Shown: piece after piece, positions 1,766-20,636 of the stretch
Layout of the letters: each line of letters begins with the position of its first letter
Position numbering within the stretch: position 1 is the stretch's first letter
Made by a program: the position numbers and the translations under genes
DNA from: Actinomycetes bacterium
GTDB taxonomy: Bacteria > Actinomycetota > Acidimicrobiia > Acidimicrobiales > RAAP-2
Reading direction: 5' to 3'
DNA length: 38,416 nt
Assembly: GCA_021831125.1 (NCBI GenBank)
Contig: JAKBNI010000010.1
Location: forward strand, 1-38,416
The notes under the pieces: generated by a model
Told to the model about the DNA's origin: nothing
Database searches by the model: none
What the model saw: only the letters and a program-made list of their open reading frames with translations

Positions 1766-3513
1766 TCGATCTCCACGACGACGTCGCCCGCGGCGACCGA
1801 GTCGCCGGTGGCGACGCGCACCGCCGAGATCACGCCGGACTTCTCGGCGGCGACGGTGTTCTCCATCTTCATCGCCTCGAGGATCACGACGGTGTCGCCG
1901 GCCTCGACCGGCTGGCCCACCTCGACGGCGACCTTCACGATGGTGCCCTGCATGGGGACGGTGACCCGGCCCGACCCACTGCCGAGCACCCCCGCGTGGT
2001 GCTGGCGACGGGGTTTGGCCGCGGTGGAGACGGGGCGGTTCAGCTCGTCGCCGTTCTCGGGCACCCAGAGGGCCACGGTGACGCGTCGGCCGTTGACCTC
2101 GGCGGTCACGTCCTTGCGCACCCGCCCGTCCCCGACGCTCACGGCGGCACCGGGGGCCGACGGGAGCTCGGAGAAGTCGAGACGGGTCTCGACCCACCGG
2201 GTCGAGTGGGTCCCCTCGACGAAGTCGTCGTCGGAGAGGATGACGACGTCGGCCGGGAGCGTCGTCGCGACGCCCTCGATGGTCGTCTCTTCGATCGCGC
2301 GCAGCATCCGGCGCCGCGCCCGCTCGCGGTCGGGCCCCCAGACCACCAGCTTGGCGATCAGGTTGTCGTAGTACTGGCTGATCGTGTCGCCCGCCTCGTA
2401 GCCGGCGTCCAGGCGCACCCCCGGCCCGGCCGGGGGCCGGAGCGACGTGATGGTGCCCGGCGAGGGGGTGAAGCGGCCCTGGGCCGGGTCCTCGGCGTTG
2501 ATGCGCACCTCGATCGCGTGCCCGTCGCGCGCGACGTCGTCCTGTCCGAAGGGCAGGGCCTCACCCGAGGCGACGCGCAGCTGCCACTCCACGAGGTCGA
2601 GCCCGGTCACGAGCTCGGTCACGGGGTGCTCGACCTGCAGGCGGGTGTTCATCTCGAGGAAGTAGAACGCTCCGTCTTGGTAGAGGAACTCGACCGTGCC
2701 GGCGTTCACGTAGCCGCAGGCGCGCGCCACGCGCACGGCCGCCTCGCCCATGGCGGTACGGACGTCGTCGGGGAAGTTCGGGGCGGGCGACTCCTCGACG
2801 AGCTTCTGGTGGCGCCGCTGGGCCGAGCAGTCGCGCTCGCCGAGCCACAGCACGGTCCCGTGGCCGTCGGCGAGGACCTGCATCTCGATGTGGCGCGGCC
2901 ACGAGAGGTACCGCTCGACGTAGCACTCCGAGCGTCCGAAGTAGCTCTGGGCCTCGCGCTGGGCGCTCTCGAGCGCGGCCTCGGCGTCGGCCGGGGACTC
3001 CACCACCTTCATCCCGCGCCCGCCGCCGCCGAAGGCGGCCTTGATCGCCACGGGCCAGCCGAACTCCTCGCCGAAGGCGACCACCTCGGCGGCGCCGGCG
3101 AGGGTCTCGCTGCGCCCTGGGACCCCGGCGACCCCGGCGGCCTCGGCCGCCCGACGCGAGGAGATCTTGTCACCCATCACCTCGATCGCCTCGGGCGGCG
3201 GGCCGATGAAGGTCACGCCCCGCGAGGTGATGGCCCGGGCGAAGTCCGCGTTCTCGCTGAAGAACCCGTAGCCGGGGTGCACGGCGTCGGCCCCGGAGCG
3301 CTCGAGCACCCCGAGGATTGCCTCGGTGTTGAGGTAGCTCTCGGCCGCGCTCTGGCCCCCGAGGGCGTAGGCCTCGTCGGCCAGGCGCACGTGCAGGGCG
3401 TTGCGGTCGAGCTCGGAGTAGACCGCGACGGTCTGGACGCCCAGCTCCCGGCAGGTGCGCATGACCCGCACCGCGATCTCACCGCGGTTGGCGATGAGGA
3501 CTTTCTTCAGCAC
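1762..3513 (-). CDS. acetyl-/propionyl-CoA carboxylase alpha subunit (biotin carboxylase + biotin carboxyl carrier domain)
   Basis: [26 protein letters not shown]-terminus, [26 protein letters not shown]-terminal biotinylation motif EAMKME; GTG start with upstream GGGAGG. Confidence 0.95.
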
Positions 3514-14636: not shown

Positions 14637-15140
14637 ATGGACGACTTCCGCCAGCTGCGTCGGCCCGGCGGGGCCGGGGCCTTCGGGCGCGAGATCGGTC
14701 CGAGCGAGGTCAGCGCACGCCGCGCCCTGGCCCGCTGTCGGGTGACGATGCTGCCCTCCACGACCGAGGCCGTCGCCGCCAACACCCTGAACAAGGGGGA
14801 CGTCCTGGCGACCGCCCGGGTGGCGGGTATCCAGGCGGCCAAGCACGCGGCGACGCTGCTGCCCATGGCCCACCCGGTCCTGGTCGGCAACGTCCACGTG
14901 AACTTCACCATCGCCGACAGCCACATCGAGGTCGAGGCGGCCGTCGACACGGTCGACCGCACCGGAGTGGAGATGGAGGCCCTGACGGCCGCCACCGTGG
15001 CGGCGTTGACGATCTACGACATGTGCAAGTCGACGGACCGCACGATGACCATCGAGCAGGTGGCGCTGTGGGAGAAGTCCGGTGGTCGCTCGGGCACGTG
15101 GCGTCGCGACGGGTTCGGCGACGGCGCGAACGGCGCCTAG
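14637..15140 (+). CDS. moaC: cyclic pyranopterin monophosphate synthase MoaC
   Basis: AGIQAAKHAATLLPMAHPVL, DRTGVEMEALTAATVAALTIYDMCKSTDRTM. Confidence 0.94.
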   Translation: MDDFRQLRRPGGAGAFGREIGPSEVSARRALARCRVTMLPSTTEAVAANTLNKGDVLATARVAGIQAAKHAATLLPMAHPVLVGNVHVNFTIADSHIEVEAAVDTVDRTGVEMEALTAATVAALTIYDMCKSTDRTMTIEQVALWEKSGGRSGTWRRDGFGDGANGA

Positions 15141-15163
15141 TCCGCCCTCGACCCCGGGGCGAG

Positions 15164-15169
15164 TACCCT
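15164..15169 (+). promoter_or_regulatory. putative -10 box TACCCT of the PafBC-like gene (leaderless)
   Basis: 6 nt upstream of GTG 15176. Confidence 0.5.
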
Positions 15170-15175
15170 CCATCC

Positions 15176-17140
15176 GTGGCCGCCAAGGAGACCGCCGTCC
15201 GCGCGGGCGTCGAGCAGAGCCGTGAGAGGCTCGTCGCGCTCGTCTTGCTGCTCCAGCGCGCCTACCAGCGCGGGCCGCTCACCCAGGAGCAGATCGTCCG
15301 GGAGCTGACCGTCGACGAGTTCCCGGCCTCGGCCCGGGGGCCGCGCAAGGTACGGGCCTACGAGGGCAGTGACGTCGCGGTGCGCCAAAAGTTCGAGCGC
15401 GACAAGGCCCGGATCCGGGACCTCGGGTTCGAGATCGAGACGGTGACCCTGCCCGACGGCTCGATCGGCTACCGGATCGACCCGGCCAGCGCGTACGCCC
15501 CGGCCATCGCCTTCACCCCGGACGAGGCGCGGGTCGTGCGCCTCGCCCTCGCCCTGTGCGGGGTCGGGCGTCGCGGTGTCTTCTCGCTCTTCAGCGACGC
15601 GCCGTCGTTCGACGGCGGGCGTGAGGCCTCGCCCTACCTGACGCCCATCCTGCGCGCGCTCCACCTGCGCCGGGCGCTGGCCTTCGACTACCTCTCGTCG
15701 ACCAACAAGACCCGCCGGGTCGAGCCCCTCGTGCTCGACGTGATCCGCGGGGTGGGCTATCTCGTGGCCCGGGTCCAGGACGCGAGCGAGATCAAGGGCT
15801 ACCGGCTCAACCGCATCACCTCGATGCCCATCGTGCTCTCCGACGCCTTCGGGGTCGACGAGGAGACGCTGGCCCTGGCGCGCGCCTGGCGCCCCGAGTT
15901 CGCACGCCCCCCCAAGCCGCTGCGCGTCGTGGTGGCCACCAACGAGGCCTACGCCGAGCTCCTGGCCCGCCAGTACCCTGCGGCCGAGCTGGACCGCCAC
16001 GGTGACGGCGCCGTCGACGTGGTCATCGACTTCGACTCCCCGCGCAACGCCCTGCGCTTCGTCCTGGAGGGCGCCGACCGGGTCCGCCTGCGCTCGCCCA
16101 AGTCGCTGCGCACCGAGCTCGCGCAGTGGCTCGACGGGGTCAACCACGCCGCGGTCCCCGCGATCGAGCCCGGCCGGTTCGAAGCTGCCGGGGGTCAGGA
16201 CGTCCTCGGCCAGACCCTTCAGCTCCTGCACGCGGTCTACGCGAGCGAGGACGGGCTGCGCGTCACGGAGCTGGCGGCGCGCTTCGGCCTCGCCCCGGCG
16301 CACGTCCGGCTGATCATGGATCGACTCGTGACCATGGAGCCGCTCGTCGACACGACCGACGGCACCGACACCTTCCCCGCGCACGTCATCAAGGAGTGCG
16401 ACGACTGGGACGACGAGGAAAACGACGACTCCCTCTACCGTGCCGACTTCTCCGACCTCCCCCACGGGGCGCCCGAGCCGTCGCCGCTGATGTGGCGTGA
16501 CCTCTACGAGCTCAACATCGCCCTGCGAGAGGCCTCGCGAGTGTACGACGAGCCCTCGGTCCACTCGGCCATCGCCAAGATCGAGGCCGCGGTCGCCGCG
16601 CCGGTGCAGGTCGAGTCCGCGAGCGAGAGGCTGCTCGGCGACGTCGAGCGCGCCGTCGAGGAGCACGCGCAGATCAAGGTCGAGTACCTGAGCGCCGCCT
16701 CCGGGGAGGTGTCGGTCCGGGCGATCGAGCCCCGCGAGATCCGGGTCCTCAACGGACACGCCTACGTCCGGGCGTACTGCACGAGCCGCGAGGGCTGGCG
16801 GACGTTCCGGGTGGACCGGGTCAACGCGATCCTCGCCACGTCGCCGGTCACGTCCGTGCGGCCGGCCGACCCCGTGGCGAACTGGCTGACCCAGGTCGGC
16901 GAGGAGGGTCATCAGGTGGTGGTCGTCGTCGAGGCCGGCCAGCGCTGGCTGTTCGAGCCGCTCCCCGGCGCGCGCTGGCTGGCTCTGCCCGACGGGCGCC
17001 ACGCGGTGACCTTCCGGGTGGGGGACCCCGTGACGCTCGACCGGCTGATGGTCCAGGCCGGTCCCGGCGCCGCCGTCGCCTCCGCGGAGCTGCGCGACGC
17101 GGGCCGCGAGCTCGCCCGGCGCATCGCGGCGACCCTGTAG
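15176..17140 (+). CDS. WYL-domain transcriptional regulator, fused PafB-PafC-like
   Basis: Two successive HTH + WYL-like modules (SRERLVALVLLLQRAYQRGPLTQEQIVREL...; TLQLLHAVYASEDGLRVTELAARFGLAPAHVRLIMDRL...) in one ORF; GTG start. Confidence 0.8.
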   Translation: MAAKETAVRAGVEQSRERLVALVLLLQRAYQRGPLTQEQIVRELTVDEFPASARGPRKVRAYEGSDVAVRQKFERDKARIRDLGFEIETVTLPDGSIGYRIDPASAYAPAIAFTPDEARVVRLALALCGVGRRGVFSLFSDAPSFDGGREASPYLTPILRALHLRRALAFDYLSSTNKTRRVEPLVLDVIRGVGYLVARVQDASEIKGYRLNRITSMPIVLSDAFGVDEETLALARAWRPEFARPPKPLRVVVATNEAYAELLARQYPAAELDRHGDGAVDVVIDFDSPRNALRFVLEGADRVRLRSPKSLRTELAQWLDGVNHAAVPAIEPGRFEAAGGQDVLGQTLQLLHAVYASEDGLRVTELAARFGLAPAHVRLIMDRLVTMEPLVDTTDGTDTFPAHVIKECDDWDDEENDDSLYRADFSDLPHGAPEPSPLMWRDLYELNIALREASRVYDEPSVHSAIAKIEAAVAAPVQVESASERLLGDVERAVEEHAQIKVEYLSAASGEVSVRAIEPREIRVLNGHAYVRAYCTSREGWRTFRVDRVNAILATSPVTSVRPADPVANWLTQVGEEGHQVVVVVEAGQRWLFEPLPGARWLALPDGRHAVTFRVGDPVTLDRLMVQAGPGAAVASAELRDAGRELARRIAATL

Positions 17141-17166: not shown

Positions 17167-18240
17167 ATGATCCGTGTCCTGGCGCGGCGCAGCCTGGATG
17201 TCACCTACTTCACCCGGGACCCGGCGCGCGAGCTGGAGGGCGTGCGCGAGGGCGGCCCGGGGTGGTGGCTTCGAGGAGGGGGTGATTCGACGGACCCGGC
17301 GCGCGTGGCGCGGGTGCTCACGGGCACGGCCCGGGCGAGGACCGTCGGCTACGACCTGGTGGTCGCGGCGCCCCGGGTCGTGTCGGTGCTCGTCGCGCTC
17401 GACGAGGGGCGCGCGAACGGCGTCGTCGCCGCGCACCGGGTCGCGGTGGGCGCCGCGATCGACTACCTCGAGGACCGGGCGCTCGTCGTGCGCGAACGGA
17501 CGGGGGGCGAGACGCGCACGCGCGCGGCACGGTGGGAGTCCGCGGTCGCCTTCACCCACGGGGTCAACCGCCACGCGGAGCCCCATCTGCACGACCACGT
17601 CCTGGTGGGCGCTCGGCCCGAGGGCGCCGACGTGGTGCTCGACGCCCGAGCCCTCGTCGCCCACACGCGCGCGGCCGACGCCCTCTACCGCGCGACCCTG
17701 CGCTACGAGGTGGCGCGGCGCGCCGGGTTCGAGGTGTGGCGCTCCTTCGCAGGGGTCGAGCACGTCAGCGATCTCGACGAGGGCTACCGTGCCCTGTGGC
17801 CCGGCCACCACGCGGCGCGCGGCGAGAAGGCCCACTGGGAGCGTGGGGAGGTCGTTGAGCGCTGGCGGGCCGAACGTCGACGGGTCGTGCTCGTGGGCGC
17901 GCGCCCCGCACCGACTCGTCACCGCGCCACGCTCGACGAGCACCGCTTCGCGGGCGCCTTCGAGGGACGCCTCGACGTGGCCCGTCGCCACGTCGTCGCG
18001 GCGTGGGCCGACGCCGCCGTGTTCGGCCAGCGCGCGCCCGAGGTGGTCGCCTCGGTCGACGTCCTCTACCCCGAGCTGCGAGGCGGACGCGGCGTGCACG
18101 AGGTGACCGTGGGCGTACCGCGGGCGCGGATGCTCGAGCGCGTGGCCGAGCGCGGCGCGCGCCCCCTGGAGCCGGCGGCGCTCGACGCGTGGTCTCAGCG
18201 CTCGCGGTCCCGTGAGAGGGCGCGCGAGCGCTCCTGGTGA
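17167..18240 (+). CDS. MobF/TrwC-like relaxase domain protein, lacking a helicase domain
   Basis: YDLVVAAPRVVSVLVALDEG and three-histidine motif FTHGVNRHAEPHLHDHVLVGARPEG; 357 aa only; upstream GGGAGG, 26 nt after the PafBC-like gene. Confidence 0.82.
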   Translation: MIRVLARRSLDVTYFTRDPARELEGVREGGPGWWLRGGGDSTDPARVARVLTGTARARTVGYDLVVAAPRVVSVLVALDEGRANGVVAAHRVAVGAAIDYLEDRALVVRERTGGETRTRAARWESAVAFTHGVNRHAEPHLHDHVLVGARPEGADVVLDARALVAHTRAADALYRATLRYEVARRAGFEVWRSFAGVEHVSDLDEGYRALWPGHHAARGEKAHWERGEVVERWRAERRRVVLVGARPAPTRHRATLDEHRFAGAFEGRLDVARRHVVAAWADAAVFGQRAPEVVASVDVLYPELRGGRGVHEVTVGVPRARMLERVAERGARPLEPAALDAWSQRSRSRERARERSW

Positions 18241-19526
18241 CGGGCGAGTCGGGGGTCGGCGTAGTAGGGCGTGAGGGCGACCCAGCGCAGGTCGTTCGTC
18301 GCCGAGAGCGCGAGGGCGTGGCCCGGGCGCCCGCGCCCGACGTCGCTCGCGGTGACCCTCGTGCGCTCGACCCACCCGCTCGAGAGGCTCCGCGCGCGCC
18401 CTCGATGGTCGCGGTGCACCGTGGGGTTCGCGACGAACTCGCGCCCGCCGAGGCGCTCGAGCGCCTCGAGCGTCGCGCGGTCGGCGATGCCCGGGAAGAC
18501 CAGGGTGGAGGGGAAGAGGGAGAGGAGGCCGTCCGCGCCCGCGCCCCACCGGGCGCGGGCCTGGCTGAGGTCCTGTAGGCAGGCGAGGGTCACGACCCCC
18601 TGGCCCCCGCCCTCGGAGACGATCGAGCCGAGCCGCGGCAGGGGCGCGACGTTGGCCAGCTCATCGAGAGCGAGCAGGAGCCGGGCGCCCTCGTGGTGGC
18701 GCTCGTAGGTGGCGTGGACGACCTCGTCGATCAGCCCGACCACGAGCGGCGTGGCCACGGCCTGGTGACGACTGGGCGAGACCACGTGGAGGTGGTGGCC
18801 GCCTTCGAGGAACGCGTCGAGGTCGAGGGGTGGCTCGAGGGACGCGGCCCGCGCCGCGTCGGTGCGCAGTCCGGCGAACAGCCCGGCCGCGGTCGACCAG
18901 ATCCCCGAGCGCTCGCGTTCCTCGGTGGCGAGCACGCCGCGCAGGGTGGCCACCGAGGCGTGGCGCTCCCCGTGGTGGGCGACGAGGGCGTCACCGAGCT
19001 CGCCGACCGAGCGCTCGTCGACGCGGGTCGCGAGTTGGCCGAGAGGCTCGTCGCGCAGCGCGGCGCCGTGGAGGAGGGGGGCGAGGAGGGCCGCCGCTCG
19101 CTCGCTCCAGTGGTCCTCGGCACGCTCCACGCTGCGTCGTGAGACGTCGAGCAGCGTGCGCGCGACGAGGACCGCGCCGTCCCATCGACGGGCCTGGCGC
19201 AGTGGCGAGTAGCCGACGCGCGTAGCGCCCTCGGGCGTCGCGACGGTGCCCGAGGGATCGAACAGGAGTGTCGCGACGTCACGACGTGCGCGGGCCATCG
19301 TCGTCACGACGTCGTCCTTTGTCGAGGTGACCACGCACGCGTCGGTGGTCATCAGGAGATTCGGGATGATGATCGAACTCGTCTTGCCACTACGCGTGGG
19401 TCCGAGGACGAGTGTCGAACGCTGCGCGCCACTCGTCGCGTCGCCGTGCGCGCCGCGACCGAGGTAGACACCGTCGAGTTCGACCACGCACCCATCGGTC
19501 GGAAAGTGGTGCGAAATGCTTGACAC
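18195..19526 (-). CDS. VirD4/TraG-like type IV coupling ATPase without evident N-terminal TM anchor
   Basis: Walker A LGPTRSGKTSSIIIPNLL, Walker B LLLALDELANVAPLPRLGSIVSEGGGQGV, TLACLQDLSQARARWG; GTG start. Confidence 0.85.
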   Translation of the reverse strand: MSSISHHFPTDGCVVELDGVYLGRGAHGDATSGAQRSTLVLGPTRSGKTSSIIIPNLLMTTDACVVTSTKDDVVTTMARARRDVATLLFDPSGTVATPEGATRVGYSPLRQARRWDGAVLVARTLLDVSRRSVERAEDHWSERAAALLAPLLHGAALRDEPLGQLATRVDERSVGELGDALVAHHGERHASVATLRGVLATEERERSGIWSTAAGLFAGLRTDAARAASLEPPLDLDAFLEGGHHLHVVSPSRHQAVATPLVVGLIDEVVHATYERHHEGARLLLALDELANVAPLPRLGSIVSEGGGQGVVTLACLQDLSQARARWGAGADGLLSLFPSTLVFPGIADRATLEALERLGGREFVANPTVHRDHRGRARSLSSGWVERTRVTASDVGRGRPGHALALSATNDLRWVALTPYYADPRLARHQERSRALSRDRER

Positions 19527-19771
19527 GCCCTCGCGTACCGAGTGAACTTTTCATTGTCCTTTGGCGGAGGGGGCCGAAAGGCGTGAGTCGTCCCAGACGA
19601 CGAGCGCCGCTCCTGCGTCACGGGGCCGTGCACTGCGGGCAGTCGCGGTACGGCCGAGAGGCCGGGCCGCACATGTGCGAGTTCACGTCAATCAAGGCGG
19701 TACCCGACGCGTCATCACAGTGGTGACCGGTGGTCCCAAGTTGATTCAACGTTGAGTCCCAAGGAGGGAAA

Positions 19772-20023
19772 GTGGCACCTGCCGCGAAGAAGAAGGCTGC
19801 GGCTAAGAAGGCCCCGGCCAAGAAGGCTGCGGCCAAGCGCCCGGCCAAGAAGGCTGCGGCGAAGAAGGCCCCGGCCAAGAAGAAGGCCCCGGCCAAGAAG
19901 GCTGCGGCCAAGCGCCCGGCCAAGAAGGCTGCGGCCAAGCGCCCGGCCAAGAAGGCTGCGGCCAAGCGCCCGGCCAAGAAGGCTGCGGCCAAGCGCCCGG
20001 CCAAGAAGGCTGCGGCCAAGTAG
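19772..20023 (+). CDS. histone H1-like Lys/Ala/Pro/Arg-rich basic protein
   Basis: AAGGAGG Shine-Dalgarno ahead of a GTG start; [27 protein letters not shown]...; 30 K and 5 R in 83 aa, no acidic residues. Confidence 0.85.
19898..20020 (+). repeat. 27-bp tandem repeat (aaggctgcggccaagcgcccggccaag), about 4.5 copies
   Basis: Four full identical 27-bp units plus a partial fifth, encoding (KAAAKRPAK)n in the H1-like gene. Confidence 0.95.
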
Positions 20024-20084: not shown

Positions 20085-20636
20085 CTAGGGGCTAAGGCGC
20101 TCGAGGTCCCCCGGATCGTCCACGTCAAAGCGCCACGGGCTATCGGTGACGGTCCGCCACGCGAGCCCGAGACGGGCCGCCTCGCGCTCGTGGTGCGTCC
20201 GCGACGACGGGCCGAAGCAGAACCGGAAGTCCGCGCCGGTGGGGACGACGAGCACGGTGGTCCCGGTGCCGTGGTGGTCGGCGACGACGGTAACGCCCGG
20301 TTCGGGCAGGAAGTCCCCGAGGCCCGCCGGATCGACGAGGTCACCGTGGGCGACGACGGCCACGTCGACCACGTCCGCGATCCGCCGGTACGCCGCACCG
20401 ACGGCGGCGTTGAGCCCCGGTGGCGTGAGCACCACGCCCGCGCCGAGTGCGCGCGCCCAGCGGGCCACGTCGTCGTCGTCGGTCGCCACGAACGTGTCGC
20501 GGGGACGGGCGGAGAGCACGACGGCGCGCGCGAGCTCCTCGACGAGCCGCCGCACGTCGAGGCCCGCGACGGCGCGCAGGCGTGACTTGGCGCGATCGAA
20601 CGACCTCAGGGGCACGATGACGCCGACCTCCACCAC
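20085..20636 (-). CDS. cofC: 2-phospho-L-lactate/phosphoenolpyruvate guanylyltransferase (F420 biosynthesis)
   Basis: VIVPLRSFDRAKSRLR, VVAHGDLVDP, DHHGTGTTVLVVP, FGPSSRTHH, FDVDDPGDL as in CofC/FbiD. Confidence 0.88.
   Translation of the reverse strand: MVEVGVIVPLRSFDRAKSRLRAVAGLDVRRLVEELARAVVLSARPRDTFVATDDDDVARWARALGAGVVLTPPGLNAAVGAAYRRIADVVDVAVVAHGDLVDPAGLGDFLPEPGVTVVADHHGTGTTVLVVPTGADFRFCFGPSSRTHHEREAARLGLAWRTVTDSPWRFDVDDPGDLERLSP

Follow-up and report, generated by a model that had tools for sequence, protein, structure and literature searches.

Conjugation machines are regarded as a property of plasmids and ICEs. For efficient transfer, MOBF systems need the helicase half of the relaxase and a second tyrosine in motif I (PMC12857230), and coupling proteins lacking a transmembrane domain (TMD-less T4CPs) are already known (PMC7434980). 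T4SS homologs have also been domesticated by cells: the archaeal Ced and Ted systems, found in Sulfolobales and Thermoproteales, respectively, take up DNA and are inducible by DNA damage (PMC9905601). Among the Patescibacteria, 109 relaxase homologs were reported in 103 genomes (PMC12102498). Our searches of open-access literature brought up no relaxase-bearing conjugation machine that is inherited vertically on the chromosome and divided between two housekeeping loci. The parts described below are of known kinds, and their relaxase-bearing chromosomal arrangement at fixed sites appears to be undescribed.

A relaxase facing a soluble coupling ATPase

The stretch of DNA analysed here (the window) comprises 38,416 nucleotides, and those of its genes that were identified by Pfam are housekeeping genes. 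The features relevant to the pair are the following (window positions).

14640 to 15140, plus strand: moaC, 5' neighbour of the pafBC-relaxase unit (context)
15137 to 17140, plus strand: fused PafBC-like WYL regulator, directly 5' of the relaxase order-wide; sole PafBC homolog found in the genome
17142 to 17150, plus strand: 9-mer CGACCGTTG, with a copy 5' of the T4SS pilin gene on a different contig; may be a cis element common to both
17167 to 18240, plus strand: MOBF/TrwC-type relaxase, 357 aa (profile, PDB sequence, AlphaFold2 fold)
17206 to 17208, plus strand: codon of Tyr14, the predicted nicking tyrosine (alignments)
17557 to 17598, plus strand: HUH metal-binding histidines H131, H142 and H144 (PDB match, alignments)
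18195 to 18240: overlap of the two convergent 3' ends, 46 bp
18195 to 19526, minus strand: T4CP1, VirD4/TrwB-type coupling ATPase, 443 aa, with nucleotide-binding and all-alpha domains and no TM segment (profile, fold)
18660 to 18671, minus strand: Walker B of T4CP1, ALDE (residues 286-289), intact
19380 to 19403, minus strand: Walker A of T4CP1, GPTRSGKT (residues 42-49), intact
19512 to 19551, minus strand: bipartite motif AAAAGTTCACTC-N14-TGTCAAGCATTTCG, conserved in the genus alignment where T4CP1 begins and probably a promoter
19527 to 19771: unusually conserved non-coding DNA from T4CP1 to the H1-like gene
19651 to 19664: inverted repeat with a 5-bp stem and compensatory changes; candidate oriT hairpin or operator
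19772 to 20023, plus strand: histone-H1-like Lys/Ala-rich protein, neighbour kept at T4CP1
20085 to 20636, minus strand: cofC, conserved T4CP1 neighbour (context)

A previous sequence-only reading of the window had described the first gene of the pair as a MobF/TrwC-type relaxase with a three-histidine motif and without helicase, and profile and structure checks confirmed the identities that it gave to both proteins. The relaxase exceeded the curated cut-off of the Pfam TrwC model (PF08751, E=7.9e-23, 81.9 bits; cut-off 25), scored slightly under the cut-off of the NCBIfam MobF model (86.6 bits; cut-off 100) and matched TrwC in the PDB by sequence (1omh, E=1.1e-8). Its AlphaFold2 model (pLDDT 79, pTM 0.83) matched TrwC 1s6m (E=2.5e-11) and TraI of pKM101. 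Tyr14, which lies near the N-terminus where a catalytic tyrosine had been suspected, and H131, H142 and H144 of the motif HxxxxxxxPHLHDH were invariant in a 15-member alignment and also among 25 relaxases. Motif I contains one tyrosine in the window's genus and Tyr-Tyr in nearly all other relaxases of the order, and the C-terminal helicase half is absent from the 357-aa protein. This short form was also found in families f21, f60 and f61. Because relaxases of other families still bear the helicase half (AAA_30, in homologs L043, L046 and L048), the short relaxase here is probably a derived reduction. The loss of the second tyrosine and the helicase could be compatible with a system that never has a plasmid to recircularise. 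The relaxase of the window's genus is fast-evolving and sits on a long branch, as does its VirB4. In one genus member (G074; loci L041 and L081) VirB4 and relaxase are the most diverged within the genus, and the system there may be degenerating or changing function.

The second gene had been read as a VirD4/TraG-like ATPase with intact Walker A and B motifs and no TM segments, which we could substantiate. T4CP1 matched PF02534 (T4SS-DNA_transf, E=3.7e-22) and TraG-D_C (PF12696, E=1.7e-13), and the fold of its model (pLDDT 86) matched Cag-beta 8dol and TrwB 1e9s; the two genes, their folds and their intact motifs are direct observations. No TM-like segment was found anywhere in the T4CP1 open frame. 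In 46 of 47 orthologous frames the part preceding Walker A was likewise free of such segments, and the single TM-like match in the remaining frame was located far upstream of the homologous region. The true start of T4CP1 may lie at about residue 14, since residues 1-16 are disordered and overlap the conserved promoter-like DNA motif. Both open reading frames and their facing orientation are as previously given, with the correction that their 3' ends overlap.

T4CP1 and the H1-like gene diverge around a 245-bp non-coding stretch (19527-19771) whose conservation exceeds that of the coding DNA on either side: identity among six genomes is 94%, versus 71-73% for the pair's third codon positions. 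No Rfam match was found in this stretch. The spacer of the bipartite motif at the T4CP1 start has a constant length of 14 bp. The stem of the inverted repeat showed two compensated pairs among nine sequences, so to judge from the alignment it could be an oriT or an operator, the latter being also possible because symmetric operators vary likewise.

In genomes of the genus, copies of the 9-mer CGACCGTTG stand ahead of the relaxase gene as well as the pilin gene; in G074 the copy at the relaxase has one mismatch. A cis element shared between relaxase and pilin is only suggested by this, because the 9-mer has 15 sites in the window's genome, dnaB included. There and in one other genus genome (G142) it lies 7 nt before the dnaB start codon.

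Fixed chromosomal sites and a partner T4SS

The relaxase gene starts 26 bp past the stop codon of the PafBC-like gene in the same orientation. In 30 of 33 evaluable loci, drawn from 14 families, the relaxase came immediately after a PafBC-type regulator in the same orientation, and this also held if T4CP1 was located elsewhere. At E<=0.001 the regulator's relatives in the PDB were PafB/PafC-type regulators only (6sj9, E=8e-19). T4CP1 has a site of its own, often after cofC with gpsA and the H1-like gene nearby, or a few kb from ddl. The Lys/Ala-rich H1-like repeat protein beside T4CP1 is kept at the same site in many families. The relaxase and T4CP1 sites are contiguous in several families including that of the window, which gives rise to the convergent pair. 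In about half of the T4CP1 genomes the relaxase is not adjacent to T4CP1.

PafBC of mycobacteria is activated by ssDNA, which is sensed via its WYL domains (PMC11804915). By analogy, the link to PafBC suggests damage-coupled expression of the relaxase, and an ssDNA-activated regulator combined with an ssDNA-handling relaxase would form an attractive, hypothetical loop.

The absence of VirB-type secretion genes, noted earlier for this DNA, holds within the window but not for the genome, and the picture of a minimal stand-alone pair was incomplete: the partner T4SS lies on another contig, which rules out an islet without T4SS. Contig C66 of the same genome encodes, all on the minus strand, virB4 (2-958), sco6880 (989-1714), a VirB6-like protein (2040-3140) and a pilin (3152-3427), and this cluster adjoins genes for a histidine kinase and a response regulator as well as serS. 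Since the contig ends inside virB4, the second coupling ATPase (T4CP2) was not seen in this genome. Across the genus the cluster contains a 2-TM pilin, a 7-TM VirB6-like protein, a SCO6880-family protein, a VirB4-like ATPase and T4CP2. The pilin belongs to DUF6112, which is related to TrbC/VirB2 and T4SS_pilin. VirB4, VirB6-like and VirB2-like genes thus occur together in the window's own genome, as expected of a monoderm (MPF-FATA-like) T4SS. No VirB8 or VirB1 homologs were recognised among the cluster proteins scanned. The T4SS of the window's genus is reduced; its VirB4 has no separate domain corresponding to the N-terminal half. Of six close MAGs, all of which keep the pilin, three gave no VirB4.

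The cluster occupies the same histidine kinase/response regulator/serS site in many other families. It had been anticipated that a T4SS or integrase linked elsewhere would mark the pair as an ICE fragment. The genome indeed has a T4SS at a distance from the pair, yet this T4SS occupies a housekeeping site that is fixed order-wide and is not an ICE.

In the VirB4 clusters of many families, T4CP2 has a Walker A lacking the glycine before the lysine (GPTQTxKT), that of T4CP1 being canonical; judging by these motifs, each cell would possibly hold one active and one altered coupling ATPase. T4CP1 is a distinct ortholog group limited to the order among the sampled genomes. In a phylum-wide search no orthologs were found outside the order at E<1e-60, and the examined homologs from outside the order (about 30% identity) adjoin VirB4, score higher as T4CP2 and lie off the serS/histidine kinase site. 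Clusters of VirB4 and T4CP2 from other families and classes of the phylum (L130-L137) have T4CPs 27-34% identical to T4CP1, also away from that site. Four genomes of family f75 carry such a cluster, which may thus be fixed in a second lineage as well.

Distribution, inheritance and selection

We screened 148 genomes of the window's order, a partial sample of mostly draft assemblies in which the named source genomes are Actinomycetota MAGs. A T4CP match was obtained in 67 of the 148, and in 47 of these T4CP1 was strong and ortholog-like (E<1e-40), so that the pair is conserved in about a third of the sampled genomes. T4CP1 was accompanied by a strong VirB4 in 46 of its 47 genomes (Fisher p=2.9e-22) and by a relaxase likewise in 46 of the 47. 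A strong VirB4 occurred without T4CP1 in 18 genomes, most of which we take to be cases of mobile copies or incomplete assemblies. In a single-contig genome of 2.16 Mb (G032), relaxase (581 kb), PafBC (590 kb), T4CP1 (610 kb) and VirB4 (210 kb) were all found on one replicon.

Both genes of the pair are under purifying selection. Among seven close genomes with 82-91% protein identity, the recommended dN/dS comparison gave 0.21 for the relaxase and 0.15 for T4CP1, within the 0.09-0.33 range of housekeeping neighbours (pafBC 0.14, cofC 0.25, rnhB 0.33, dxs 0.09), and no internal stops were found in either gene across the seven.

Distances of the unlinked genes were correlated in Mantel tests (relaxase vs VirB4 r=0.83, T4CP1 vs VirB4 r=0.73, p=0.0005). 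This is weak evidence for congruence with the host tree, because VirB4 distances were uncorrelated with those of serS or the histidine kinase, and these two were uncorrelated with each other (r=0.09). As the Mantel comparison with these housekeeping genes was uninformative, family-labelled maximum-likelihood trees were used instead. The number of family-label changes was 19 for T4CP1 (minimum 18, shuffled 33), 15/15 for VirB4 and 7/7 for the relaxase. All three genes track host taxonomy, with a vertical signal at family level.

The purifying selection, the vertical signal, the fixed sites and the co-occurrence of the two loci, also within one genome, were observed directly. We hold with high confidence that the pair forms part of a chromosomal system which is conserved, passed on vertically and equipped with a partner T4SS. 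Two alternatives had been offered for the pair from the start. A decayed or mobilizable conjugation module is not supported in view of the fixed sites, the dN/dS values and the trees following taxonomy; a domesticated DNA-processing pair is supported by the fixed chromosomal sites, the vertical signal, the purifying selection and the conservation in about a third of the sampled genomes.

Proposed function and comparison with known systems

As for function, we consider it rather probable that the pair is the relaxosome and coupling half of a conjugation apparatus which became a fixed chromosomal trait of the order and exports the cell's own chromosomal DNA; nicking, DNA transfer, its direction, its regulation and an oriT are what we infer in this reading. 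The relaxase would be co-expressed with the DNA-damage regulator PafBC and would nick an origin on the chromosome, remaining covalently attached to the strand via Tyr14; one candidate for this origin is the conserved non-coding stretch beside T4CP1. Soluble T4CP1, presumably as a hexamer, would bring the strand to a membrane channel of VirB6 and VirB4, perhaps via T4CP2. The second half of the machine would be supplied by the other fixed locus, next to serS and the two-component system, with its VirB2-like pilin, VirB6-like protein, SCO6880, VirB4 and T4CP2. Chromosomal ssDNA might then exit to a sister cell or into the medium, resulting in chromosome exchange and not in self-transfer of an element. 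Several observations speak against this explanation: the lack of the helicase half and of the second motif-I tyrosine in the window's genus, its reduced T4SS, the close MAGs in which VirB4 was not found, and the T4CP1 genomes whose relaxase lies apart. The more complete proposal, an order-wide domesticated, relaxase-driven conjugation encoded at two fixed loci, tied to PafBC and exchanging chromosomal DNA between sister cells as a relaxase-bearing bacterial counterpart of Ced and Ted, is tentative, and we give it slightly less than an even chance.

A rival reading assumes the opposite direction. Domesticated T4SS homologs import DNA in Ced and Ted, the relaxase stands behind a regulator whose mycobacterial relatives sense ssDNA, and the single tyrosine and missing helicase matter less for import. 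The T4SS-like machine and the pair could thus have been taken over for the uptake of DNA or for repairing DNA ends inside the cell, the relaxase acting on ssDNA instead of initiating export. We regard this as unlikely, since Ced and Ted lack a relaxase, and since a VirD4-type T4CP and a nicking enzyme whose HUH motif is intact together make up the exporting half of conjugation.

Some chromosomal T4SSs have turned into effector systems. The T4SS here might likewise secrete proteins by now, with the relaxase as a secreted or docking substrate that has no role on DNA, and the chromosomal T4SSs of Patescibacteria, mostly without relaxase (PMC12102498), would be in line with this. The catalytic tyrosine and histidine triad are however kept under purifying selection, the relaxase accompanies T4CP1 in nearly every genome, and no effector genes were recognised beside the loci, which makes protein secretion a decidedly unlikely explanation.

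The truncated, fast-evolving relaxase with its one tyrosine might be expected if an ICE, IME or mobilizable plasmid had entered the chromosome of an ancestor and its remnant were slowly decaying; T4CPs with 33-36% identity do occur on small plasmids of Rhodococcus and Mycobacterium. Against this, no integrase was recognised in the window, in keeping with the first reading, and neither a linked integrase or recombinase nor a replication gene was among its Pfam-identified genes; in place of the patchy distribution and variable site of such elements, the relaxase site is fixed in 14 families; and the pair, with its low dN/dS and uninterrupted frames, is co-retained with an unlinked T4SS. Given synteny, selection and trees, a decayed ICE was rejected, and the remnant explanation as a whole, to which we assign very little probability, is already largely refuted.

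A plasmid origin was rejected as well: T4CP1 had at most about 36% identity to plasmid homologs among the matches listed, and no plasmid match was obtained for the relaxase. The inspected small plasmids of Rhodococcus and M. kansasii encode a larger T4CP (about 605-620 aa) with no annotated relaxase gene near it. These plasmids (14-18 kb, typed as non-mobilizable) are odd in that they carry a VirD4-type T4CP among unknown neighbours with no annotated relaxase or T4SS channel.

The least credible explanation, and a highly improbable one, is that the pair alone forms a nuclease-translocase for defence or chromosome maintenance, unrelated to transfer: WYL regulators are often found with defence loci (PMC9122601), and the T4CP fold is common to HerA-like translocases, but the pair co-occurs with a T4SS channel, and PADLOC models, by which a known defence system was rejected, gave nothing for the relaxase and only mad8 at E=0.005 for the T4CP.

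If this order-wide system with its retained catalytic relaxase does export chromosomal DNA, the capacity for chromosome exchange can be heritable as a property of the cell itself. It would provide a recombination route for largely uncultured actinobacteria and a testable link between the ssDNA-sensing damage regulator PafBC and ssDNA export. Annotators should also not take a lone relaxase/T4CP pair for ICE debris.

Compared with known systems, Ced and Ted are similar in having chromosomal VirB4, VirB6 and VirB2-like T4SS homologs that serve a cell function linked to DNA damage. Such chromosomal, vertically inherited homologs are present here too, with DNA transfer as their predicted function. 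Ced and Ted differ in being archaeal importers with no known relaxase (PMC9905601), whereas the system described here is bacterial, has a MOBF relaxase and VirD4-type T4CPs and is encoded at two fixed loci. The T4SSs of Patescibacteria are likewise widespread, chromosomal, lineage-specific and of monoderm type, but they mostly lack the relaxase that is present here in nearly every T4CP1 genome. TraJ of pIP501, a TMD-less T4CP, and TrwB of R388 share with T4CP1 the nucleotide-binding and all-alpha domains without TM anchor; in contrast to them, T4CP1 is an ortholog group limited to the order among sampled genomes and is paired with a T4CP2 in a T4SS cluster. The same protein families (TrwC, T4SS-DNA_transf and AAA_10) are used by actinobacterial ICEs that have a T4SS and a TrwC relaxase (PMC3218068), but these ICEs are mobile and need an integrase, while the loci here are vertically inherited at housekeeping sites. 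The relaxase itself has the HUH fold, catalytic tyrosine and histidine triad of TrwC (R388) and TraI (F, pKM101), from which it differs in lacking the helicase half, in its single motif-I tyrosine and in its chromosomal position behind pafBC. The gonococcal T4SS is an acquired genomic island of one genus. It resembles the present system in being chromosomally encoded, in having a TraI relaxase and in secreting ssDNA (PMC8716806), and differs from it in being neither order-wide nor split over housekeeping loci.
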